Below are positions 7,821 through 20,043 of a DNA stretch of 49,381 nucleotides, one piece after another. The stretch covers positions 1 to 49,381 of the forward strand of contig JAJXWN010000002.1 in assembly GCA_021781595.1 (NCBI GenBank). The letters run 5' to 3'. The position numbers and the translations under genes are program-made. A model generated the notes under the pieces. That model was given only the letters and a program-made list of their open reading frames with translations, did not search any database and was not told the origin of the DNA. This stretch comes from a bacterium. Lineage in GTDB: Bacteria > Vulcanimicrobiota > Vulcanimicrobiia > Vulcanimicrobiales > Vulcanimicrobiaceae. Numbering within the stretch: position 1 is the stretch's first letter; every line of letters begins with the position of its first letter.

Positions 7821-8603
7821 TCAGTTCTCCCCCTTCAACGAATCGCCCGTAGCGGGCGCGGGGCGTGTCGTCACGCGCTCGATGCGTTTCCCTTCCGGCG
7901 AAACGCGTACGACTCGATGCACGAAGATGCCCGGCAGATGCACCTGTTCCGGGTCGATCTCGCCCGGCTCGACGAGGCGCTCGACTTCGGCGATCGTGAT
8001 CTTCCCCGCCATCGCACATAACGGGTTGAAGTTGCGCGTGGCCTTGTGAAAGACGAGGTTCCCTGCGCGGTCCCCGACGCTCGCGCGCACGAGCGCAAAG
8101 TCGCAGACGATCCCTTCTTCCATCACGTACTCGCGCCCGCCGAACGCCCGCGTCTCTTTCTTGGGCGACGTCTTCGCAATCGTTCCGTCGGGATTATAAC
8201 GCCACGGCAATCCACCGTCCGCGACCTGCGTCCCGACGCCGGCCGGCGTGTAGAACGCCGGGATGCCGCAACCGCCCGCGCGCAATCGTTCGGCAAGCGT
8301 ACCCTGCGGTACGAGTTCCACCTCGAGCTCGCCGCTCAGATACTGCCGCTCGAACTCCTTGTTCTCGCCGACGTACGAACCGGTGGTCCGGCGGATGCGC
8401 TTGGCATCGAGCAAGACGCCCAGCCCCCAGCCGTCGACCCCGCAGTTGTTCGAGACGGTTACGAGATCGGTCGCACCTTGTTCGAGCAATGCCCCGATGA
8501 GATTGTGTGGAATGCCGTTGAGTCCGAAGCCGCCGACGGCCAGCGTCGCGCCGCTGGGGATATCCCGAACGGCCTCGGCGCACGATGCAAATACTTTCTC
8601 CAT
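7821..8603 (-). CDS. scoA: 3-oxoacid CoA-transferase, subunit A
   Basis: This 260-residue alpha subunit has the CoA-binding GGFGLNGIP motif near residue 24, the GNKE-like segment GENKEFE, and the long FGGREYVME to KATRNFNP stretch of the family. It precedes scoB by a single base. Its ATG lies in a 152-base divergent region shared with the acyl-CoA dehydrogenase that contains a candidate operator at 8673-8699. The exact acyl substrate cannot be read from the sequence. Confidence 0.94.
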
Positions 8604-8672
8604 ACAACGCCATCTATGCTAGGGAAACCCTCCGGGGTCCCGCTTCACGCTCCGTCGTGGGGCGCGCGGCAG

Positions 8673-8699
8673 CGGTTTCGACGCGACGCGCCGAAACCG
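8673..8699. promoter_or_regulatory. Candidate operator (8-bp inverted repeat)
   Basis: CGGTTTCG (8673-8680) and CGAAACCG (8692-8699) form a perfect 8-bp inverted repeat with an 11-base spacer, between the divergent scoA and acyl-CoA dehydrogenase genes. The size and symmetry fit a dimeric repressor site such as TetR type. No such regulator gene lies nearby, so this is inference. Confidence 0.4.
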
Positions 8700-8755
8700 A
8701 CGCGGAATGCCAGGCGCCGCGCAACGAGCGGCGCGCTCAAGAAGGAGCCCCTCCC

Positions 8756-9946
8756 ATGGCCGCTTCCACGCCGCACGACGCATCCTCCGAGGAAGAGGCG
8801 CTGATCCTCGAAGTGGTACGCGATATCGTTGCCCAAAAAGTCGCACCTCGCGCCGCCGAGATCGACGCGCGTGCCGAGTATCCGCAAGATCTGCGAGAGC
8901 TCTTCGCGCAGAACGACCTGCTCGGGATCCCGATCCCCGTCGAATATGGCGGCCTCGGCGGCTCCTTCGTTACCTACGTCAAGGTCGTTGAGGAGATCGC
9001 CAAGGCCTGCGCGTCGAGTTCGCTGATCGTCGCCGTGCAGGAGCTGGGCATGCTTCCGATTTTGATCGGCGGCAACGAAGCGCAGAAGCAGCGCTATCTC
9101 CCTAACGTCGCATCGGGGAAGTGGATCGCGGCCTACGCGCTGACCGAATCAGGCAGCGGCTCCGACGCCGCCGGTTCGATGCGCACTCGCGCCGAGAAGA
9201 AAGGCGACGCCTACGTCTTGAACGGGCAGAAGATTTGGATCACCAACGGCAGCGTCGCGGATGTCGTCTGCGTCTTCGCCGTTACCGACCCGGCCAAAGG
9301 CGCGAACGGCATCAGCGCGTTCATCGTCGAGAAGACCTTTCCGGGCTTCGTCGTCGGCAAGCACGAAAAAAAGATGGGCATTCGCGGTTCGCCGACCGTC
9401 GAATTGATCTTCGATAACTGCGAGGTCCCCGCGGCGAACCTGCTCGGGAACGAAGGCGAAGGCTTCAAGATCGCCATGAAGGTGCTCGACAAATCGCGCC
9501 CCGGGATCGCGGCGCAGGCGCTCGGTATCGCGCAAGGTGCGCTCGACTACGCTGCCGCCTACGCGCAGGAGCGCATCGCGTTCGGAAAACCCATCGGACA
9601 CCAGCAGGGCGTCGGCTTCATGCTCGCCGACATGAAGACGGAGGTCGAATCGGCCCGCCTGCTGCTCTACGAAGCCGCGCGCAAGTGCGACGCAGGCGCA
9701 GCGGACGTCACGCTCTGGGCGGCGATGGCGAAATTGAAGTGCGGCGACGTTGCCATGAGCGTCACCACCGATGCCGTGCAGGTTCTAGGCGGGTACGGCT
9801 ACTCGGCCGAGTACCCGCTCGAACGGATGATGCGCGACGCCAAGATCACGCAGATCTACGAAGGCACCCAGCAGATCCAGCGCTTGGTTATCTCCCGCGC
9901 GTTGGCCGGCAGAGGGAAACCGGTCAAAGCTACGCCCAATACGTAG
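8756..9946 (+). CDS. Acyl-CoA dehydrogenase
   Basis: This 396-residue FAD enzyme desaturates acyl-CoA at the alpha-beta bond and passes electrons to ETF. It has the family signatures YALTESGSGSDA in the middle domain and VLGGYGYSAEYPLERMMRD in the C-terminal domain. The catalytic glutamate in IYEGTQQIQ is at about residue 369, the position used by short-chain and medium-chain type enzymes. The frame is open upstream, but the ATG at 8756 has a GAAGGAG site 8 bases before it. It is divergent from scoAB, suggesting a common catabolic route. Confidence 0.94.
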   Translation: MAASTPHDASSEEEALILEVVRDIVAQKVAPRAAEIDARAEYPQDLRELFAQNDLLGIPIPVEYGGLGGSFVTYVKVVEEIAKACASSSLIVAVQELGMLPILIGGNEAQKQRYLPNVASGKWIAAYALTESGSGSDAAGSMRTRAEKKGDAYVLNGQKIWITNGSVADVVCVFAVTDPAKGANGISAFIVEKTFPGFVVGKHEKKMGIRGSPTVELIFDNCEVPAANLLGNEGEGFKIAMKVLDKSRPGIAAQALGIAQGALDYAAAYAQERIAFGKPIGHQQGVGFMLADMKTEVESARLLLYEAARKCDAGAADVTLWAAMAKLKCGDVAMSVTTDAVQVLGGYGYSAEYPLERMMRDAKITQIYEGTQQIQRLVISRALAGRGKPVKATPNT

Positions 9947-10076
9947 GAAGGCACTCCCGCCGCCGTTCAGTTCCTAAAGAGGGGGACGCCACACCCGGTC
10001 GAACTTTTGAGCCTCACGTTCCGTTCTAGGACTGTGACGAACGCCTGGTCTATGGTCCGGGCGCTACTCTTATGTG

Positions 10077-10084
10077 AAAGGAGG
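10077..10084 (+). promoter_or_regulatory. Strong ribosome binding site of the lysine-rich gene
   Basis: AAAGGAGG, a near-perfect anti-16S match, lies 9 bases before the ATG at 10094. It is the strongest such site noticed in the window, suggesting heavy translation of the small basic protein. Confidence 0.7.
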
Positions 10085-10093
10085 AATACTCGA

Positions 10094-10336
10094 ATGAAGA
10101 AGCTTCTCGCATCGCTCGTCGCCGCATCGTTCTTGCTGGCGGCTCCGGTCATGGCCGCAACTACCCATACCAAGACCAAAACGCACGCGGTCTCGAAATC
10201 CGGCAAACACACCAAGACGACCAAGCACACTAAAGTGACCAAGAAGACCAAATCGCCAAAGAAAGGCAAGTCTTCGAAGAAGACCACTAACGCCAAGAAG
10301 ACCAAGTCGACCAAGGGCACCAAGGTCAAACACTAG
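10094..10336 (+). CDS. Secreted lysine/threonine-rich small protein
   Basis: This 80-residue protein has a clear Sec signal peptide (MKKLLASL, hydrophobic core, cleavage after about residue 21, VMA-A). The mature part of about 58 residues is almost only Lys, Thr, Ser, Gly and His, with KT/KK repeats such as KHTKTTKHTKVTKKTKSPKK, and has no acidic residue. It should be extremely basic and disordered. Binding to DNA, anionic polysaccharide or lipid A is possible but unproven. It has a very strong ribosome site and its own terminator at 10372-10398. Confidence 0.8.
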   Translation: MKKLLASLVAASFLLAAPVMAATTHTKTKTHAVSKSGKHTKTTKHTKVTKKTKSPKKGKSSKKTTNAKKTKSTKGTKVKH

Positions 10337-10371
10337 TCCCCCGTTATATTCTTTCGCGTTTATCTCGAACG

Positions 10372-10398
10372 GCGCGGTGGCAACACCGCGCTTTTCTT
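10372..10398 (+). terminator. Rho-independent terminator with GCAA tetraloop
   Basis: An 8-bp GC-rich stem (10372-10379 with 10384-10391) is closed by a GCAA loop and followed by TTTTCTT. It ends the lysine-rich gene and overlaps the last codon of the convergent VIT gene. Confidence 0.88.
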
Positions 10399-11215
10399 AG
10401 CCGCCAAGGCCCATCGGCGTATATCCGAAGAGCGGCGGGATGTAATGTCCGGCCAAGAACGATATGACGAAGACGACGGTTCCGTACATCGCGATCTCGA
10501 GGCCACGCAGCCACGGATTGCGCCCTCCCATGCGCCCGGCTACCACACCGATGCCGAAGAGCCCGCACAGAGCGAATATCCCGCTGGCGAAGACCGCGTG
10601 TGCGAGCGGAACCCCGACGAAGTACGGGACGATCGGAATCACCGAGCCCAGCGCATACGAGCCGGCCATCGCCAAAGCCGGGAACAGACCCGACTGTTCT
10701 GCGATGCGCGGATCGATACCGAACTCGTCGCGCATCATTTCATAAAGATAGATCTCGGGGTTTTTCGTCAGCCGCGTTACGATCATCTGCGCTTCTTCCG
10801 AGCTGAAACCTTTGACCTTATAGTAAGCGACTTGTTCGGCGAACTCTTCTTGCGGATGCGCCTCCATCTCGTCGCGCTCCATATCGACGCTGGCCTGCAC
10901 GACCTCGCGCTCCGATTTGGAGCCCTGGTAATCACCGACGCCCATCGAGAGCGCGCCCGCGATGAGCGCCAGCAGTCCGCTGATGATGACGGTCAGGCGC
11001 CCGCCGGACGCGATGCCGATGCCCGTTAGGATGCCCATCGTCGTGAGGATACCGTCTTTTGCCCCAAAGACGAAGTTCCGCACTGCTCGCTGGCGTTCGA
11101 GTTGCCGTCGTTGCGGCGTATCGGGGATGCGCGGTTGGACGTGCTTCCAGTCGGCCGTATCCACGTTAGGATGATCCGGCAGATTCGGTTCGTACCTCAA
11201 AGATGTTCGACCCAC
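10397..11215 (-). CDS. VIT1/CCC1-family transporter
   Basis: This 272-residue membrane protein belongs to the family of iron and manganese carriers (plant VIT1, yeast CCC1). After a hydrophilic N-terminus it shows VRNFVFGAKDGILTTMGIL, the first helix motif typical of the family, and GDYQGSKSE after helix 2. A charged cytosolic metal-binding segment with the conserved ERDEM and EE clusters follows, then three further helices. It probably moves Fe2+ or Mn2+ out of the cytosol. The listed start is a GTG overlapping the S9 peptidase end by 19 bases; a TTG at 11200 overlapping its TGA is an alternative. Confidence 0.9.
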   Translation of the reverse strand: MGRTSLRYEPNLPDHPNVDTADWKHVQPRIPDTPQRRQLERQRAVRNFVFGAKDGILTTMGILTGIGIASGGRLTVIISGLLALIAGALSMGVGDYQGSKSEREVVQASVDMERDEMEAHPQEEFAEQVAYYKVKGFSSEEAQMIVTRLTKNPEIYLYEMMRDEFGIDPRIAEQSGLFPALAMAGSYALGSVIPIVPYFVGVPLAHAVFASGIFALCGLFGIGVVAGRMGGRNPWLRGLEIAMYGTVVFVISFLAGHYIPPLFGYTPMGLGG

Positions 11216-13332
11216 CAGGTAAGCATATGGCCGAAGAGCTGGCGATGTTGGGCAAGTCCCGCGATCGGGTGGAGCGTCCGCGGATAGACCATGAAATCGA
11301 CGTCTTCCTTATCCGCGAGCACGAACTGCTGCAACAGCGCGATAGAGTTGGCCATATGCACGTTGTTGTCGCTCGTGCCGTGGCTGATGAGCAGAGCACC
11401 GTGCAGATTCTTAGCCGCCGTCAGCACCGAGCTTTCGTCGTACGCGCGCGGATGGTCTTGCGGGCGCCCCATATAACGCTCCGTGTAGATCGTATCGTAC
11501 AAGTGCCAATCGGTCACCGGAGCGACCGCCGCCCCCGCTCTGAACAACGTCGTATGCGTGAGGGCGTACGCCGTTTCGTATCCGCCGAAACTCCATCCCC
11601 AGATCCCGATGCGCTTGGCATCGACGTATGGGAGCGAATCCAAGTAGCGCACTCCGATCACCTGCCCGAGCAGCGAACCCGGGCCGAAGTCGTGATAGAG
11701 CATACGTACGTGCACGTCGCTATTCACCTGCGATGCGGGCCCGTCGATAGAGAACACGATGAAGCCCCGGCGCGCGAGCAGTTGATGGTACAGCGCAAAT
11801 TGGTAGCCGAAGCCGTCGGTCGTCGTCGGAGCCGCCGGACCGCCGTAGACGTAGACGATGACCGGGTACCGGCGATGCGGATCGAAGCGGGGCGGCACGA
11901 GCATCCACGCGTCGAGCGGACCGTACGCCGAGGGTACCTCGAACATCCGCACCGGCAGCAGCGCCGCCTGCAGCGCCGCGTTCTTCGCAGCGAGCGTCGC
12001 GAGGACTCGGCCGTCGCGCAGATTCACGAGGTCCGCCTGCGGAGGCTGGTTCACGGTCGAATGCGTATCGACGAACGTCGCGGCGCCGGGCGCCAGCCAA
12101 ACGCGGTGCGTCCCCTTCGCCGGCGTAAGATCCTCCACGGAACCACCGTGGAGCGGCACCGCAAGCAACGAACGGTCTCGCCGCGTCGGATAGGCCGCCG
12201 TGACGTAGGCCACGTGCGACCTCGGGTCCGTTCCGAGCAGATTGAAGGTGCGGTAGGCTCCGGTCAGGCGGCGCAGCGCGCCCCGCGCCGCACGTTCGTA
12301 GAGCCCGAACGTACCGCCGCGATCGAGGACCCACAGGGAGGAGCCGTTCGGCAGCCACGCCGGCAGAGGTACGTCGTCGAGCCATTTCGGGTCGGACTGG
12401 GCATAGATGCTCTGCGGCGGCCGCGAGAGATCGTTCCATTCAACGACGCGCAAGTGCTTTTGGGAGCGATCCAGCAACTCGGCGAGCAGATCTTTCGAGT
12501 TCGGCTTCCATCCGAAGAACGGCAAATACTCGTCTTTCGCCCCCGCGTCGTAGAGGAGGCGGCTCGCGCCCGTTCGCAGATCCACCACGCGCAGCGTGAC
12601 GCGCGGGTTGTTTTCTCCCGCGAGCGGGTAGCGCTGGTAGCTCACGGTGTTATCGTATGGCAGGAAGTCGACGATGGGAAACTCCGTTACGCCCCGCTCG
12701 TCCATCCGAAGATACGCAATCGCATTCCCGTTGGGCGACCAAGCGTAGCCGTGCGCCGTCCCGAGCTCTTCCGGATACACCCAATCGAGCTCGCCGTTGA
12801 GGATCGCGCCGCTTCGCCCACCACGGGTCACCCGCGTAATCCGCAGCCTCCGGCCGAGGTGGGCGACGTACAGGTCCGCTGCGTGGACGTAGGCGATGGC
12901 ATCACCCAGCGGTGACCACTGCGGATCCCGCGCGCGGCCGGCGACCTTGCGGTCGGTGCCGGCCGCGACGTCACGTATGTAGAGCGTCCCCCGCTCGAGG
13001 TACGCGAGCGATCTTCCGTTCGGCGACCAGACGAGCGAGCCCGGCGTGCGTGCGCTCTTGCCGAACCGGGCGGGATCGATCAAGACCCGGCTGCGCCTGG
13101 AGGCAACCTCGTACAGGTAGACCGGAAGTACCGCCTTCGGGTCTTGGCCGGGCAACACGTACGCAAACGCGCGGCCGTTGGGTGCCCACACGATCCCGGA
13201 CGGCAGAAAGCCCCATGGCGGGCGACCGGCAAAGACGCTGTTCAGCGTCAGGTGAAAGGCCGGGCTCGCGGCTGCAGCACCAGCGCAAGTTGAGACAAGA
13301 AGTAGGACGGCCATTATGGAGCGGCGCAGCAT
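11197..13332 (-). CDS. S9 family serine peptidase (dipeptidyl-peptidase IV type), secreted
   Basis: About 711 residues: a signal peptide (MAVLLLVSTCAGAAAASP), an N-terminal beta-propeller with repeated WSPNG/WAPNG blades, and a C-terminal alpha/beta hydrolase domain. The catalytic triad is visible: Ser in GWSFGGYETA, Asp in HGTSDNNVH, His in YPRTLHPIAG. It should cut N-terminal dipeptides or short peptides outside the cytoplasm. The frame is open further upstream, but the signal peptide fixes the start near 13332 (in-frame ATGs also at 13314 and 13359; no clear ribosome site). The VIT gene follows with overlap. Confidence 0.92.
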   Translation of the reverse strand: MLRRSIMAVLLLVSTCAGAAAASPAFHLTLNSVFAGRPPWGFLPSGIVWAPNGRAFAYVLPGQDPKAVLPVYLYEVASRRSRVLIDPARFGKSARTPGSLVWSPNGRSLAYLERGTLYIRDVAAGTDRKVAGRARDPQWSPLGDAIAYVHAADLYVAHLGRRLRITRVTRGGRSGAILNGELDWVYPEELGTAHGYAWSPNGNAIAYLRMDERGVTEFPIVDFLPYDNTVSYQRYPLAGENNPRVTLRVVDLRTGASRLLYDAGAKDEYLPFFGWKPNSKDLLAELLDRSQKHLRVVEWNDLSRPPQSIYAQSDPKWLDDVPLPAWLPNGSSLWVLDRGGTFGLYERAARGALRRLTGAYRTFNLLGTDPRSHVAYVTAAYPTRRDRSLLAVPLHGGSVEDLTPAKGTHRVWLAPGAATFVDTHSTVNQPPQADLVNLRDGRVLATLAAKNAALQAALLPVRMFEVPSAYGPLDAWMLVPPRFDPHRRYPVIVYVYGGPAAPTTTDGFGYQFALYHQLLARRGFIVFSIDGPASQVNSDVHVRMLYHDFGPGSLLGQVIGVRYLDSLPYVDAKRIGIWGWSFGGYETAYALTHTTLFRAGAAVAPVTDWHLYDTIYTERYMGRPQDHPRAYDESSVLTAAKNLHGALLISHGTSDNNVHMANSIALLQQFVLADKEDVDFMVYPRTLHPIAGLAQHRQLFGHMLTWWVEHL

Positions 13333-13375: not shown

Positions 13376-13894
13376 ATGGCCGACCCGTTCGACGAAGCGT
13401 TCACCCAGAGCAATCCCATCGTAGTCGCCGCCACGCGTATCCGCGCCCGGCGCGACATCGATGCAGCGGCCGACGGCGCCGCGGACCCGGCCACCCGGCG
13501 CCTTGAGGACGCCGAGGCTGCACTTGCGGCCTTTGCGGAACAACTCCGATCGGGCGTCAAGCGTTTGAACGCCATCCTCGGGGAGCGCACCGGCGTCACC
13601 TTCGTGAGATTGCTCCACCCTCTCCGGGTGCGCCTGCGCTTTCGCGGCAAGCGGGTCGGGCTCGACTTGGACGAGATGCACCAGCTGGTTCGCATCAGCG
13701 GAGGCAATCTCGACGGGGAGTGGCAGTTCGATCCGAATGCCGAGGCGCCGTCGCTGATCAATCTTTCGAAGCTGTCGACGGAGAGCGGCTATGGAGAGCC
13801 GCTGACGGCGCCGAACCTCCTCAGACTCGTCGCACAGGACGCAGAGTTGCCGCGGCCGCCCCACCTCGACGCACCCGGCCCTTTGCGCTTTTGA
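13376..13894 (+). CDS. Hypothetical protein, 172 residues
   Basis: I do not recognise this family. The N-terminal third is helical with many Ala/Arg/Glu (possible coiled coil, residues 20-65). The rest is mixed, with LHPLRVRLRFRGKRVGLDL and a C-terminal segment PSLINLSKLSTESGYG. It looks like a soluble cytosolic protein. Its composition and frame are like real genes, and the frames opposite lack family features. The ATG lies 43 bases from the divergent peptidase start. Its last 74 bases overlap the end of nth tail to tail. Confidence 0.65.
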   Translation: MADPFDEAFTQSNPIVVAATRIRARRDIDAAADGAADPATRRLEDAEAALAAFAEQLRSGVKRLNAILGERTGVTFVRLLHPLRVRLRFRGKRVGLDLDEMHQLVRISGGNLDGEWQFDPNAEAPSLINLSKLSTESGYGEPLTAPNLLRLVAQDAELPRPPHLDAPGPLRF

Positions 13895-14519
13895 CGAGCT
13901 TCGGCGTCGGACAGATTCCGTTCACCGGGCACTCCCCACAGAGCGGCGCCCGAGCCTTGCAGATGCGGCGTCCGTGGAGGATCAACCAATGGTGAGCGTG
14001 GCGCCACTTCTCGCGCGGTAGGAGAGCGGTCACGTCTTTCTCAACCTGAAGCGGCGTCTTGCCGAGGGTTAGACCCAAGCGGTGCGCGACGCGAAAAACA
14101 TGGGTGTCGACGGCAAACGCAGCCTCGCCGAACGCCACCGACATGACCACGTTGGCTGTTTTTCGCCCGACGCCGGCTAGCGACTCGAGGGCTTCCCGTT
14201 CGCGCGGAACCTCGCCGCCGAATTTCTCGGAGATGTCGCGCGCGGCTCGGACGATATTCTTGGCTTTCATGCGATAGAAACCGCAGGATTTAATCAAGCG
14301 CTGAACGTCGAGCTCGTTCGCCTTGGCCAGTTGCCGTACCGTTGGGTACCGCTCGAACAGCGCGGGCGTCGTCAGGTTCACTCGTACGTCGGTGCATTGT
14401 GCCGAAAGAATGACGGCGACGAGCAGCTCGTATGGGTTGCGGTACTCCAGAGCCGTGGCCGCGTGCGGATACGTACGTTCGAGAATCGCGAGTTCCTCGA
14501 ACGCTACGGCCTTGGACAC
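13821..14519 (-). CDS. nth: Endonuclease III (DNA glycosylase/AP lyase)
   Basis: This 232-residue base-excision-repair enzyme removes oxidised pyrimidines and nicks the abasic site. It has the helix-hairpin-helix LAGVGRKTANVV with the catalytic Lys, the catalytic Asp in AVDTHVFRV, and a C-terminal 4Fe-4S motif C-X6-C-X2-C-X5-C (CKARAPLCGECPVNGIC). The GTG at 14519 is chosen because the protein from there aligns without gap to the start of E. coli Nth as I recall it, and an AGGA precedes it. It starts 5 bases after the GGDEF-STAND gene stop, so the two are likely cotranscribed. Confidence 0.94.
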   Translation of the reverse strand: MSKAVAFEELAILERTYPHAATALEYRNPYELLVAVILSAQCTDVRVNLTTPALFERYPTVRQLAKANELDVQRLIKSCGFYRMKAKNIVRAARDISEKFGGEVPREREALESLAGVGRKTANVVMSVAFGEAAFAVDTHVFRVAHRLGLTLGKTPLQVEKDVTALLPREKWRHAHHWLILHGRRICKARAPLCGECPVNGICPTPKLVKSAKGRVRRGGAAAATLRPVRRV

Positions 14520-14524
14520 CTTTC

Positions 14525-17500
14525 CTACAGCAGCACGCACTCGCGCAACATCGCGATCAACGTCGTCGAGGCTCCGCGCGCGCGCCTGCGTTCGAACTCG
14601 GCCGCGCCGATTGCGCCGCACACGCGGTTTCGAATCCCATCGTACTCCGCCACATCGGCCGTTGCCAGTACGGCGGCGTTGCGGCTACGGTAGCGTTCCG
14701 CGAACCCCGTCAACTCGGCGGCCATCGTATCCTTGCCGGTCGCGTTCGCAAACCACGCGCACGTCTCCAAGAAGTACGCGACGTAGTGCGGGGGTTCGGA
14801 GGAGGCGTAGACTCCTGCGGCGCCGCGAAGCGCTTCGCGCGCCGCCCCTACCTCCCCAAGCCGCAAACGGCAACGAGCCAAGATGGAGAGTGCCAGCGCC
14901 AGCAGCGGATGGCCGATCCGCTCGAAGATCGCGCAGGCTTCTTCCGTATCCCGTACGGCGGCCTGCGTTTCATCGATCCGGTACTTGATTTGCCCGCGCG
15001 TCAGCAGCGACGAAGCGAGTTTGTACCCAAGATCGATGCGGCGGCAGATGTCGACGGCTTCGTCCGCGTACGCGAGCGCTACGGCGTGGTTGCAATAGCC
15101 ATCCGTCTCGACGGCACCGAGGTTCGCAACGACCGCCGCGATCGCATGCGGGTTCTTTGCACGGCGGAAGACCTCGAGGCAGCGCCCGTAGATATCGCGC
15201 GCCTCGCCGAAGTTGCCGCGCATGTAGTAGGAACTGCCGATCGTCTGCAGGCAGCGCGCCGCATTGACTTCGTCCCCCGCACGCTCGAACGCGGCGAGCG
15301 CGTCGCGCGCCGCGCGCTCCGCCGTCGCAGGATCGGCTTGACCGTAGGCGAGCACTGCCAAGCAACGGTGGAGGCGCCCGCGGGTGGCGTCGTCGAGCGA
15401 CTCTTCATGCCGCAAGCCCAGCCGCGCCAAGCGGCGGCCTTCGGCGTGGCGGCCGATGCGCCCGAGGAAACCGGCGAGATTCGCGAGCAGATCGGCACCG
15501 GCGCGCGCGTCGAGTTGTTCGGGCAGCAGCCGGCGCAACGCCAGAACGTAGTTGTCGATCTCAACCCGGTCGGCGATGAGCGATGCCTGGTACTCCGGAT
15601 CGCCGCCGTCTACCGGCAGCCGCTTCGATGCCTTTGCGTAGTAGCGCGCGAAGCGGTCCCGCAGCGACTCGGCGTCATCGTCCTCTTGCAGGCGCTGCGA
15701 CGCGTACGCCGCGGTCGATTGTAGCATTCGAAAGCGCGTACCCTCATTCTCCGTCGCGACGAGCGACTTGCGCTCGAGCGATCCCAAGAGCGCCTCGGTT
15801 TCACCGGGCGCCATCTCGGCAGATTTGCACACCTCGCGAACCGCCTCGACGCGACCGCCCAGCGCGAAGACCGAAAGACGCCGAAACAAGCGGCGCTCCT
15901 GCTCGGAGAGCAGCCGATAACTCCAATCGAACGCGTGGTAAAGACTCTCTTGCCGGGGGTGCGGCGCCCGCGCCGAGAGCGAGAGCACCCGCGCCGCGTC
16001 CCCAGGCTCCAAGATCTCACGCACGTGCCCCGCCACCAACTCGAGGGCGAGGGGCAGGCGATCCAGTTTGCGGCAGATCGCATCGAGCGAATCCGGATCC
16101 AGGGGCAAATCGCTATTCCCGCCAGCCCGCCTCGCTCGTTCGAGAAAGAGCTGCCGGGCATCCTCGGGCGGCAAACCGCCGACGTGGACGACGCACTCGC
16201 CGGCAATCGAGAACGGCTCGCGGCTGGTCGCGAGCACCCGGATCCGCGGAGCCGCGAGCAGCAGCCGCGCAATCGTCGAAGCGCACTCGCCCAGGAGATG
16301 TTCGCAGGTGTCCAAGAGCACCAGCGCCTCGACGTCGCGCAGATCGCGGAGCAACGCTTCGAAGGCTCCCTCGCCGGTCGCCTCCCGGATGCCGAAAACG
16401 TTCGCCAAGGCCGAGATGAGCTGCGCCGAATCGTGGAGCGATGCGAGTTCGATCAACCGCGCACCGTCTTGGCAGCAGCAGGCATACCGCTCCGCAAAAC
16501 GCGTTGCCAGGCGAGTCTTACCGGCACCCGGCGGACCCACGAGGGTAGCCAGCCGGGCGCTCCGGAACGTTCGCTCCAACTTCGCTAGCTCCATCTCTCG
16601 CCCGACGAAGGTGGTGATGTAGCTCGGCATGTTGTGGCGTGCGTCGAAACGTTCGTGGTTGGCGGGCGTATCCGAGCGGTGCCCTTGCGCGACGTACCGG
16701 TTGCGTCCCGCATTCTTGGCTTCATATAGCTGGTGGTCGGCAAGTTCGACCAGGCTCGTTGGATCGCGATCGGGCACCGCGACGCCGGCGGCTACGCCCA
16801 AACTCACCGTAACACGCTCGAGCGTCGTGCTCGCGTGGTCGAGCGCGAGATTCGAGACGCTAACGAGAATGTGCCGTGCGGCCTTGCAGGCGGCCCGTTC
16901 GTCGGCACCGGGAAGCAGCATCACGAACTCCTCGCCGCCGTAACGAGCAACGAGGTCCAGCGGGCGCGGCGCGCACGCGGCGATCCCGCGCGCGATCTTC
17001 TGCAAGCACAGATCGCCGGCGACGTGCCCGTAACGCGCGTTGTAGGCATGGAAGTAGTCGACGTCGACGAGGATCAGAGCCAGGCTCTGCGCGGAGTGCG
17101 CCGCGCGGCTCCATTCGGCGGCTAAGCGCGCGTCGAAGGCTCGCCGGTTCGCGAGTTGCGTTAACGCGTCGCGCGTGGCCAGCTCCGCCAAACGCCGGTT
17201 CGCCAGGAACGCCGCCAGGTATAGCGCCGCCGTCTCGAGCGTTGCGAGAATCGCTTCACCGATGCCGGCGTCTTCGCTCTGTAAGGCGATCGCCCCGATC
17301 GAGTCGCTTCCGGCGCGTAGCGGGAATGCAGCGGTGGCATAGCCGCCGTCCTCGCCGCGGACCATCGCCCCGGCCTCGACCGCGCGCAGCAGCGACGGCC
17401 ACGATGTCGGGAGCTCGCCGGTGCCCGACTCGACATCTTTGGTGTGGGAGTAGACCGGCCTAAGGCCGTCGCCCAGATCGATCACCGCCGCAAAAGAGCG

Positions 17501-17611
17501 AAGCGACGTGGCGCCGGAAGAGCCGGCGCGCAGCGTTTCAAAGACCTCCTCGAGCGGAGGATCGCGCGCGAGCACTCGCGCCAGATCACCCAGCAGATCG
17601 CGCGACGTCAC
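14525..17611 (-). CDS. GAF-GGDEF diguanylate cyclase fused to STAND ATPase and TPR repeats
   Basis: A 1028-residue fusion. Residues 15-135 look like a GAF sensor. Residues 145-308 are a GGDEF domain with metal-binding LVDVDYF (Asp183/185), active-site GGEEF at 225-229, and the product-inhibition RxxD site at 216-219 in correct spacing, so active c-di-GMP synthesis with feedback is predicted. After a linker comes the TTFVGRE entry motif and a STAND/NB-ARC ATPase: Walker A GPPGAGKT at 359-366, Walker B VLLDTCEH around 434, sensor ATSREP at 461 and LPLALEL at 519. Residues from about 690 to the end are helical repeats of TPR type. No DNA-binding domain is seen. The layout copies the known class III adenylate cyclase-STAND-TPR proteins with the cyclase swapped. 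Start GTG, 48 bases after mutY. Confidence 0.92.
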   Translation of the reverse strand: MTSRDLLGDLARVLARDPPLEEVFETLRAGSSGATSLRSFAAVIDLGDGLRPVYSHTKDVESGTGELPTSWPSLLRAVEAGAMVRGEDGGYATAAFPLRAGSDSIGAIALQSEDAGIGEAILATLETAALYLAAFLANRRLAELATRDALTQLANRRAFDARLAAEWSRAAHSAQSLALILVDVDYFHAYNARYGHVAGDLCLQKIARGIAACAPRPLDLVARYGGEEFVMLLPGADERAACKAARHILVSVSNLALDHASTTLERVTVSLGVAAGVAVPDRDPTSLVELADHQLYEAKNAGRNRYVAQGHRSDTPANHERFDARHNMPSYITTFVGREMELAKLERTFRSARLATLVGPPGAGKTRLATRFAERYACCCQDGARLIELASLHDSAQLISALANVFGIREATGEGAFEALLRDLRDVEALVLLDTCEHLLGECASTIARLLLAAPRIRVLATSREPFSIAGECVVHVGGLPPEDARQLFLERARRAGGNSDLPLDPDSLDAICRKLDRLPLALELVAGHVREILEPGDAARVLSLSARAPHPRQESLYHAFDWSYRLLSEQERRLFRRLSVFALGGRVEAVREVCKSAEMAPGETEALLGSLERKSLVATENEGTRFRMLQSTAAYASQRLQEDDDAESLRDRFARYYAKASKRLPVDGGDPEYQASLIADRVEIDNYVLALRRLLPEQLDARAGADLLANLAGFLGRIGRHAEGRRLARLGLRHEESLDDATRGRLHRCLAVLAYGQADPATAERAARDALAAFERAGDEVNAARCLQTIGSSYYMRGNFGEARDIYGRCLEVFRRAKNPHAIAAVVANLGAVETDGYCNHAVALAYADEAVDICRRIDLGYKLASSLLTRGQIKYRIDETQAAVRDTEEACAIFERIGHPLLALALSILARCRLRLGEVGAAREALRGAAGVYASSEPPHYVAYFLETCAWFANATGKDTMAAELTGFAERYRSRNAAVLATADVAEYDGIRNRVCGAIGAAEFERRRARGASTTLIAMLRECVLL

Positions 17612-17659
17612 GAACCGTTCCCATGAGCGAGCCTTTTCTTCACGCTCTCGCGCGGCACC

Positions 17660-18577
17660 TCAGTCGCGTAACGCAAGGCCGGCGCCCGACTTGTCGATGA
17701 GTCCGTCGTGCACCAGCGATTCGACCACGATCCCGAACTCGCCGATGCTGCGCTCACCGAGCTTCGGCTCCAACTCGCGGTGGAGATCGAGCAGGCTCAC
17801 GCGTTGCCCCGGCGGCAGCGCTCGCAGACGGTCGACGATGCGCCCGCGTACGTAACGGGTGCTCCGCTCGAACGGAACGATCTCTTGCGGTGCGCGCCTG
17901 CGCGGATGGCGGCGCCGTGCCGCATCGAGGCGTGCGGCGTCGATCGGGGCGGCGGCGCACGCCGTTCGAATCGGGCAGATCGAGCACTTCGGCGCGCGCG
18001 CCGTGCAGATCGCCGCACCCAGGTCCATCAAACCAGAATTCCAGGCGTGCCCTCGCCCCTTCGGCACGAGCGCGCGTGCATCGGCATCGAGCGTTCGCGC
18101 GCTGGCGCTCGGCGGATACTCGAGGCCATATAGCCAGCGGTGGACGACGCGGCGAACATTCGTATCGATCGCAGCATCGTCGAGATCGAAGGCAAACGCG
18201 CGGACGGCGGCGGCGGTATACGCTCCGACTCCGGGTAAGGATCGCAGCGACGCCTCGTCGGATGGCACCGCCCCGCCGAATCGTTCCATCAGCGTCCGGG
18301 CCAGCAATTTGAGACGGACGGCACGCGAATTGTAGCCGAGCCCCTTCCACATGCGCACCACGTCCGCGGTACTCGCCGTTGCCAGCGACTCCAAGCTCGG
18401 GAACCGGTGCACGAAGGCTTCGAACGCCTGCAGCGCGCGGTCGACCTGCGTCTGCTGGAGCATGAGCTCGCTCACCAGCACGCGATATGGGTCGCGCGTC
18501 TTGCGCCACGGCAGGTGCGCGCGGCCGCACCGGCCGTACCAGGCCAGGAGCAGCCGATGCAACCGCGGGTGGCTCAC
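17660..18577 (-). CDS. mutY: A/G-specific adenine glycosylase MutY
   Basis: This 305-residue repair enzyme removes adenine mispaired with 8-oxoguanine. It shows LPWRKTRDPYRVLVSELMLQ with the catalytic Glu, the hairpin LPGVGAYTAAAV, the catalytic Asp in AIDTNVRRVVHRW, and the 4Fe-4S cluster CTARAPKCSICPIRTAC. The C-terminal 80 residues (FERSTRYVRGRIVDRLRAL onward) resemble the short winged-helix-like end of actinobacterial MutY rather than the NUDIX-like domain of E. coli MutY. The GTG at 18577 overlaps the TGA of the MocR gene as GTGA, which fixes the start and suggests coupling. Confidence 0.94.
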   Translation of the reverse strand: MSHPRLHRLLLAWYGRCGRAHLPWRKTRDPYRVLVSELMLQQTQVDRALQAFEAFVHRFPSLESLATASTADVVRMWKGLGYNSRAVRLKLLARTLMERFGGAVPSDEASLRSLPGVGAYTAAAVRAFAFDLDDAAIDTNVRRVVHRWLYGLEYPPSASARTLDADARALVPKGRGHAWNSGLMDLGAAICTARAPKCSICPIRTACAAAPIDAARLDAARRRHPRRRAPQEIVPFERSTRYVRGRIVDRLRALPPGQRVSLLDLHRELEPKLGERSIGEFGIVVESLVHDGLIDKSGAGLALRD

Positions 18578-20043
18578 GAACGAACGCGCGCGATCGCCAG
18601 GCCGATGCGGTGGATGCCTTCGGCAATCTCGATGCGAGGCACCGCCGTAAGCGCAAGCCTGAGGTTGTGGTCGCCGCCGGAGTTCGCGTAGAACGCCTCG
18701 CCGAAGAGAAACGAGGCGCCTTGCCGTTCCGACGCATCGAGCAGCGGCCGCGCGCGGATCTCGCGTGGCGTCGTCACCCACAAGTAGAATCCTCCACTAG
18801 CTTTGCTCGTCCGAAAGGTCGCCGGCCAGTACGCGGCAATCGCTTCGTCGGCGATAGCGCGCCGCGCGAAGAGTTCCTCCCGCAGCTGCGCGACGTGAGC
18901 GTCGTATCCGGACTGCAGGTAGTCGCGGATGGCCGCCTGCACGTAGAGACTCGTGGCCATGTCGTGCGCCTGCTTACGCAGCAGCAGCCGCTCGAGAATC
19001 GTCCGCGGCGCAGAGAGCCAGCCGACGCGAAGGCTCGGGGCGATCGTCTTGCTGAACGTGCTCAAATAGACGACGTAATCGGGAGCCAAGCCGACGAGCG
19101 GAGGGCTTTCATTTCTCGCAAGCTCGCCGTAGGGGTCGTCCTCGATGATCGGGATCCCGGCACGGCGCGCCACGGTCACCAGCCGTTCGCGCCGGTCGGC
19201 GTTCATCGTCGCGTTCGTTGGATTGTGGATCGACGGCATCGTGTAGATGAAGCGCGGGCGGCGCGTGCGCAGGATCGCCTCCACGTGGTCGACGCGCATG
19301 CCGTCGTCGTCGAGCGGCACCGGAATGGCTCTCAACCCGCAGATCTGAAAGATTTGCAGCGCGCCCGGATAACTAGGCGTCTCGACGATGATCTCGTCGC
19401 CCGGCTCGGCGAGACTCTGTGCGACGATCATGATGCCCTGCGTCGAGCCGGTCAGCACGATCACATCTTTGGCTTGCGTGCGCGCGCCGCGAGCCGTCAT
19501 GCGATGCGCGATCGCCGCGCGCAGTGGCTCGTACCCCTCCGAATCACCGTACGAGAGCACGATGCGCGGATCGGCAGCGACGCGCGAGAAACACTTCGCG
19601 AGTTCGGGGAGCGGCGACGGTTCGTCGGGCGCTACGCCTTGCACGAACGAGATGCGCCCAGGCTCTTGCTTGGCGGCGAGCTCGCCAAGCACCATGGGAA
19701 ACTCGCCCACGCGCCAGGGCGGCAGCGTCACCCACCAGGGAACGGCGGCCGAGCGCTCCGGCTGCCCGGCGCGCAGCGTCGGCACGACCCGCGAACCCGA
19801 CCCGACCCTCTGCTCGATCAAACCGTCGGCCACCAGCTCGCGATAGGCGCGCACGACGGTGCTCCGGTTGACGCCGAGCCGGACCGCCAGCGTACGCTCA
19901 GGCGGCAGGCGCGTCGATTCGGGAAGCGTCCCTGCGAGGATGGACTCGCGCAGACCTTCGTAGATCTGCCGGTAGAGGGGAACGATGCTGTTCCGGTCGA
20001 GCGGCGGAAGCGCACCAGGCCATCCAATCTTGGACATTCCCAC
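18574..20043 (-). CDS. MocR-family transcription regulator (GntR HTH plus aminotransferase-like domain)
   Basis: 489 residues. The N-terminal winged helix (PLYRQIYEGLRESILAGTLP, then LPPERTLAVRLGVNRSTVVRAY) is GntR type. The rest is a fold-type I aminotransferase domain with the PLP lysine in LSTFSKTIAPSLRVGW and the GSTQGI pocket motif. Such proteins sense PLP or amino-compound ligands and control vitamin B6, GABA, taurine or amino-acid genes. The listed start is GTG; ATG at 20037 is an equally good start. It leads the co-directional run with mutY, the GGDEF-STAND gene and nth, and is divergent from lpdA. No PLP gene is adjacent; pdxST lies 22 kb away. Confidence 0.93.
   Translation of the reverse strand: MGMSKIGWPGALPPLDRNSIVPLYRQIYEGLRESILAGTLPESTRLPPERTLAVRLGVNRSTVVRAYRELVADGLIEQRVGSGSRVVPTLRAGQPERSAAVPWWVTLPPWRVGEFPMVLGELAAKQEPGRISFVQGVAPDEPSPLPELAKCFSRVAADPRIVLSYGDSEGYEPLRAAIAHRMTARGARTQAKDVIVLTGSTQGIMIVAQSLAEPGDEIIVETPSYPGALQIFQICGLRAIPVPLDDDGMRVDHVEAILRTRRPRFIYTMPSIHNPTNATMNADRRERLVTVARRAGIPIIEDDPYGELARNESPPLVGLAPDYVVYLSTFSKTIAPSLRVGWLSAPRTILERLLLRKQAHDMATSLYVQAAIRDYLQSGYDAHVAQLREELFARRAIADEAIAAYWPATFRTSKASGGFYLWVTTPREIRARPLLDASERQGASFLFGEAFYANSGGDHNLRLALTAVPRIEIAEGIHRIGLAIARVRS

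Follow-up and report, generated by a model that had tools for sequence, protein, structure and literature searches.

Why should a gene that lies between two glycosylase genes of DNA repair encode a diguanylate cyclase domain joined to a STAND-type NTPase, and what would such a protein do? The locus raises this question in several parts: whether the fusion is real, whether its cyclase head is intact, which half of the chain governs the other, and whether its neighbors say anything about its role. The window, meaning the whole stretch of DNA that was analyzed, is an entire contig of 49,381 nucleotides from a genome of 2.26 Mb in 276 contigs, that of an uncultured member of the phylum Eremiobacterota. 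The features considered are listed in Table 1.

Table 1. Features of the fusion locus, in window coordinates
Feature	Position	Strand	Evidence and remarks
nth, endonuclease III, downstream neighbor	13821..14519	-	GTG start at 14519; TIGR01083, 262.8 bits, over cut-off
GAF-GGDEF-STAND-TPR fusion gene	14525..17611	-	1028 aa, GTG start; ORF and domain calls
TPR-like helical repeats, residues ~650-1028	14528..15664	-	TPR_12, TPR_MalT
STAND/NB-ARC-type NTPase, residues ~326-640	15692..16636	-	P-loop K365, Walker B D434; AAA_22/nSTAND1, AfsR profile match
GGDEF (diguanylate cyclase) domain, residues 145-305	16697..17179	-	GGEEF 225-229, I-site RxxD 216-219; Pfam
N-terminal GAF-like domain, residues 1-140	17192..17611	-	Terminal helix runs into GGDEF; profile of relatives' N-termini, GAF_2 in relatives
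mutY-like adenine glycosylase, upstream neighbor	17660..18781	-	HhH-GPD; TIGR01084, E 7e-68, under cut-off

The domain order GAF, GGDEF, STAND, TPR had been read by eye in the first-pass annotation, and it was borne out by Pfam together with a profile of relatives' N-termini; the catalytic motifs are intact and lie where that annotation had placed them. GGDEF is matched at E 8e-44 (149.7 bits against a cut-off of 23.8), AAA_22 above its cut-off over residues 351-447, and TPR_12 over residues 747-816; nSTAND1 (residues 334-622) and a MalT-like TPR region are matched below their cut-offs. The protein itself has no Pfam match to GAF, but its residues 3-139 match a profile built on the N-terminal regions of 33 relatives in other genera (E 7.7e-18), and GAF_2 is matched by 19 of the 35 aligned fusion proteins. 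Within the same set, at E<=0.01, AAA_16 is found in 34 proteins and NB-ARC in 22. The STAND family profile matches the AfsR structures 8k60 (E 5e-47) and 8jke (E 1e-45). An AlphaFold model from the single sequence was unusable (pLDDT 39). A chance join or misassembly was considered and ruled out, since the same gene occupies the same place in two more genomes: a second genome has it (the orthologues in the two congeneric genomes are 96% identical), and a third, one further congener, carries it split over two contig ends.

The residues on which both active sites depend are strongly conserved. D183, D185, N191, D200, R216, K299, R303, K365, and D434 are identical in all 35 aligned sequences. The features by which a diguanylate cyclase is recognized in sequence (GGEEF, D183, N191, D200, E227, K299, and R303) are all present and invariant or nearly so; we take the metal-, GTP-, and I-site roles of these residues from homology with PleD. 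At the I-site, R216 is conserved in 35 of 35 sequences and D219 in 34. The STAND NTPase motifs are likewise present, with G359, G362, G364, K365, and D434 invariant and R464 kept in 33 of 35. Residue 188 is histidine in the window protein and lysine in 32 of the 35. Between species of the genus the fusion ORF is under purifying selection, with dN/dS of about 0.17 overall and 0.16 for GGDEF, 0.13 for STAND, 0.19 for TPR, and 0.34 for the N-terminus; the flanking genes give comparable values (mutY 0.27, nth 0.20).

Conservation does not extend to every copy. GGEEF is kept in 38 of the 41 fusions checked, and the other three read GEDQF, GGKEF, and GEEEF. The first of these belongs to G015 (L058:6429-9542, minus strand), the nearest homologue outside the genus at 42% identity, which has also lost RxxD but is still matched by GGDEF (E 5e-35) and retains NB-ARC and TPR; at least one family member therefore seems to work without cyclase activity. 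Because the motif residues are conserved but three copies are damaged, cyclase activity is likely for the window protein and most of the family, though not for every member. The first-pass annotation had allowed that the GGDEF domain might prove inactive; judged by sequence, this applies to the G015 homologue and not to the window protein.

Loci spanning GGDEF through STAND number 47, in 33 of 149 Eremiobacterota genomes and 17 genera; about a dozen of these are absent from the alignment used as query. All but one lie in the window's own family, the exception (G072) coming from another family of the same class. One genome, G019, has two fusion genes in tandem (L079:5172-8408 and 8513-11740, plus strand) that are sisters on the STAND tree and likely represent a recent duplication. 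Beyond the phylum, 297 Actinomycetota and 349 Pseudomonadota genomes were searched; among the matches listed, the best are STAND-only and start with the STAND part, a weak negative in that two candidates were scored per genome and the list is confined to E<=1e-150. In a tblastn search of 72,556 plasmid records none covers 80% of the protein, the best reaching 51%, mostly of the STAND part. A profile scan of genome contigs gave the STAND part in none of 80 loci among the matches listed and is useless as a census, as the chosen patterns sat in the GGDEF core.

What the head contributes is best seen against the other heads borne by related STAND domains. Of 90 such domains collected, 41 carry GGDEF and 27 a class III cyclase, the remaining heads being BTAD, winged helix, GAF, HTH_31/HTH_3, and TIR. 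The class III domain is thus the head on 27 of the 49 sampled STAND domains that lack GGDEF, in agreement with the first-pass claim that it is the usual STAND-linked cyclase and a GGDEF head unusual. Within the window's family, class III cyclase, BTAD, HTH_31/HTH_3, TIR, and GGDEF all occupy the same N-terminal place on STAND-TPR, so the N-terminal domain is likely the output and STAND-TPR the shared control. The window's genome holds two other STAND proteins that we found (one BTAD-STAND-TPR, and one STAND-TPR cut by a contig end), and a STAND query retrieved none of its other ten GGDEF matches.

Phylogenies of the two parts differ. The GGDEF label has to change 10 times on the STAND tree, a count in which one row labeled 'other' is in fact the GGDEF fusion of the split congener; a single clade for the STAND parts of GGDEF fusions was rejected (AU p=0.0126, with long branches in play). 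In the tree of GGDEF domains, 36 of the 41 heads and one partial fusion fall in one cluster (SH-aLRT 85) that stands apart from the genome's other GGDEF domains and outside sequences. Since the heads cluster and a single clade is rejected for the STAND parts joined to them, the heads appear to have been shuffled; the simple reading of these trees is that one GAF-GGDEF module would have been joined to several STAND lineages in the family. The same family also includes a TIR-STAND protein (L260:806-3487, plus strand) with TIR_2 at residues 15-154 followed by AAA_16/NB-ARC, a defense-like head on a chassis of similar type.

How might the two halves work together? The window's genome has 11 GGDEF, 5 EAL, and 5 PilZ matches, so c-di-GMP signaling is probably in use. 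GGDEF enzymes need two domains face to face, and STAND-driven rearrangement or assembly would therefore lend itself to the control of a cyclase head. By analogy with MalT and AfsR, we give a little better than an even chance to c-di-GMP synthesis being controlled by a STAND/TPR switch that responds to ligand and ATP. The protein would then be a cytoplasmic diguanylate cyclase with the STAND switch as its regulatory part. In the resting state the STAND NTPase, with nucleotide bound, and the TPR arm would keep the GAF-GGDEF head unproductive; once the TPR sensor binds a ligand or partner and ATP replaces the bound nucleotide, the STAND module would open, allowing two GGDEF domains to meet and c-di-GMP to be made. 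The RxxD I-site would provide product feedback, and GAF may supply a second small-molecule input. In this scheme we infer the enzyme activity, the direction of control, the oligomerization, and the ligand.

MalT passes between an ADP-bound resting form and an ATP-bound oligomeric form (PMC10427625). In AfsR the N-terminal head is kept inhibited by NOD and TPR until ATP binds, and ATP leaves the oligomeric state unchanged (PMC10936776); oligomerization as the trigger may accordingly not carry over. The fuller account takes the fusions to be a lineage-specific family of NLR-like diguanylate cyclases of the STAND-TPR type, whose c-di-GMP synthesis is gated directly by an ATP-driven STAND module and which arose by repeated head swaps on one chassis; we hold it tentatively, at a shade under even chances.

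The main rival to a STAND-gated cyclase reverses the direction of control. GAF and GGDEF would sense either a small ligand or GTP, or else c-di-GMP bound at the I-site, and would thereby control the STAND part, whose assembly, or the binding of a partner by TPR, would be the output. The near-invariant I-site residues fit such a role, as does the G015 homologue, which keeps its NB-ARC and TPR despite a broken GGEEF, and c-di-GMP is a known ligand of some P-loop NTPases (PMC10333796). A full catalytic motif in 38 of 41 copies is, however, beyond the needs of a pure binding role, and in sister proteins the N-terminal place is filled by simple output domains (class III cyclase, SARP, HTH, TIR). 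We consider reversed control unlikely, with perhaps one chance in several of being right.

A role in conflict or antiphage defense, in which STAND-TPR would recognize phage or cell damage and a pulse of c-di-GMP would act as the alarm, is less probable again. The first-pass annotation had hinted at defense. STAND proteins such as Avs5 do work in defense (PMC12931631); in vWA-MoxR conflict systems a GGDEF domain in rare cases takes the place of the cNMP cyclase (PMC7159879), and one STAND protein of the family bears the TIR head described above. Against this, PADLOC returned nothing above noise (best E 0.0017, over 35 P-loop residues), the neighboring genes are housekeeping genes with no defense island, and no recurrent effector gene was found beside the fusions. 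The hint thus finds no support at this locus, and we regard the defense reading as improbable.

There remain the neighbors themselves. mutY, the fusion, and nth are indeed co-directional on the minus strand with gaps of 48 (mutY) and 5 (nth) bases, as first reported, and this arrangement makes co-transcription plausible. The true start of the mutY-like gene is probably inside the ORF given in Table 1. Its protein has no Pfam match for the C-terminal NUDIX-like 8-oxoG-recognition domain; the last ~90 residues look by eye like a winged helix, and the family matches reach the C-terminus. The two genes mutY and nth adjoin or nearly adjoin in nearly every genome of the family and class. Across 20 mutY-nth slots from relatives (L175-L194), none holds STAND or GGDEF, and the backbone is largely kept: a MocR-like regulator, mutY, a variable insert, nth, and an S9 peptidase or VIT1. 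The insert ranges from 0 to 11 kb and differs in sequence, with S9-type peptidases in several. The mutY-nth interval (13821-18781 in the window) is thus a variable insertion slot inside a kept backbone.

The fusion lies between mutY and nth only in three species of the window's genus, and in about 35 fusion loci from 16 other genera neither mutY nor nth occurs in any flank examined. Because the older slot exists elsewhere without the fusion, and the fusions of other genera lie elsewhere, these comparisons of gene order argue that the fusion's place is an insertion in one genus, not a functional tie. The first-pass annotation had taken the neighborhood as a hint of a link between oxidative DNA repair and second-messenger signaling, to be weighed by whether the mutY and nth neighbors recur in relatives; when checked, they were not conserved outside the genus. 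That the fusion couples oxidative DNA damage repair to c-di-GMP signaling, as its tight co-directional packing in three species might suggest, is very improbable given that mutY and nth keep their proximity without it across the class, that other genes occupy the slot elsewhere, and that no fusion locus examined from the 16 other genera lies there.

When the neighbors of the fusion loci were compared, no ORF family was found in more than four loci, and no recurring neighbor suggested a ligand or pathway. Four loci from three genera (L082, L084, L088, and L089) have several neighboring ORFs in common, some of which resemble, by eye, DUF1501/DUF1800-type proteins and an acyl-CoA carboxylase; this location is possibly the ancestral site of the fusion gene.

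A search of the open literature, with subscription papers and protein-database annotations outside its reach, found no description of GGDEF-STAND proteins, so that within this scope the fusion is not already widely described, as the first-pass annotation had allowed that it might be. The words STAND, NB-ARC, NACHT, AAA, and TPR are absent from a census, dated 2022, of the inputs that c-di-GMP enzymes receive (PMC8846402). STAND gating would be an input mode for these enzymes that our search of the open literature did not turn up. If the protein is active, two large signaling worlds, c-di-GMP and the NLR-like STAND switches, are united in one chain, and there exists a natural series in which one chassis carries cAMP-type, c-di-GMP-type, DNA-binding, and TIR heads. 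Such a series would let one ask how a STAND switch controls whatever head is attached.

Set beside known systems, the fusion appears to be a known modular design in second-messenger form. AfsR and the large SARPs of Streptomyces share the STAND NTPase followed by TPR and the N-terminal output domain, and the AfsR STAND (8k60, 8jke) is the closest solved structural relative of the fusion's STAND part; they differ in lineage (Actinomycetota) and in having a DNA-binding SARP head, with an N-terminal OmpR-type DNA-binding domain and BTAD where the fusion has GAF-GGDEF. The Mclx proteins (Rv0386, Rv1358, Rv2488c; PMC4452763) likewise have an N-terminal nucleotide cyclase followed by an NB-ARC/STAND NTPase, as do the many Guanylate_cyc-STAND-TPR proteins of Eremiobacterota. 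In these proteins, however, the catalytic domain is a class III, cAMP/cGMP-type cyclase (Guanylate_cyc) instead of GGDEF, and Mclx ends in a LuxR HTH. MalT offers the same kind of switch, ADP-bound at rest and assembling when ATP-bound (PMC10427625), but its output is a C-terminal DNA-binding domain and it has no cyclase. Ordinary GAF-GGDEF diguanylate cyclases match the head in architecture and motifs but lack the STAND-TPR part. A Frankia protein (L103) of the order kinase-AAA_16-GAF-GGDEF, which may be compared with the kinase-TPR-GGDEF protein of Clostridium thermocellum (PMC1262709), has GAF-GGDEF on the same chain as a large P-loop ATPase, so that this combination is not itself new; its order is the opposite one, with the kinase N-terminal and GGDEF C-terminal. 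The variant here is an N-terminal GAF-GGDEF head on an AfsR-like STAND-TPR chassis.
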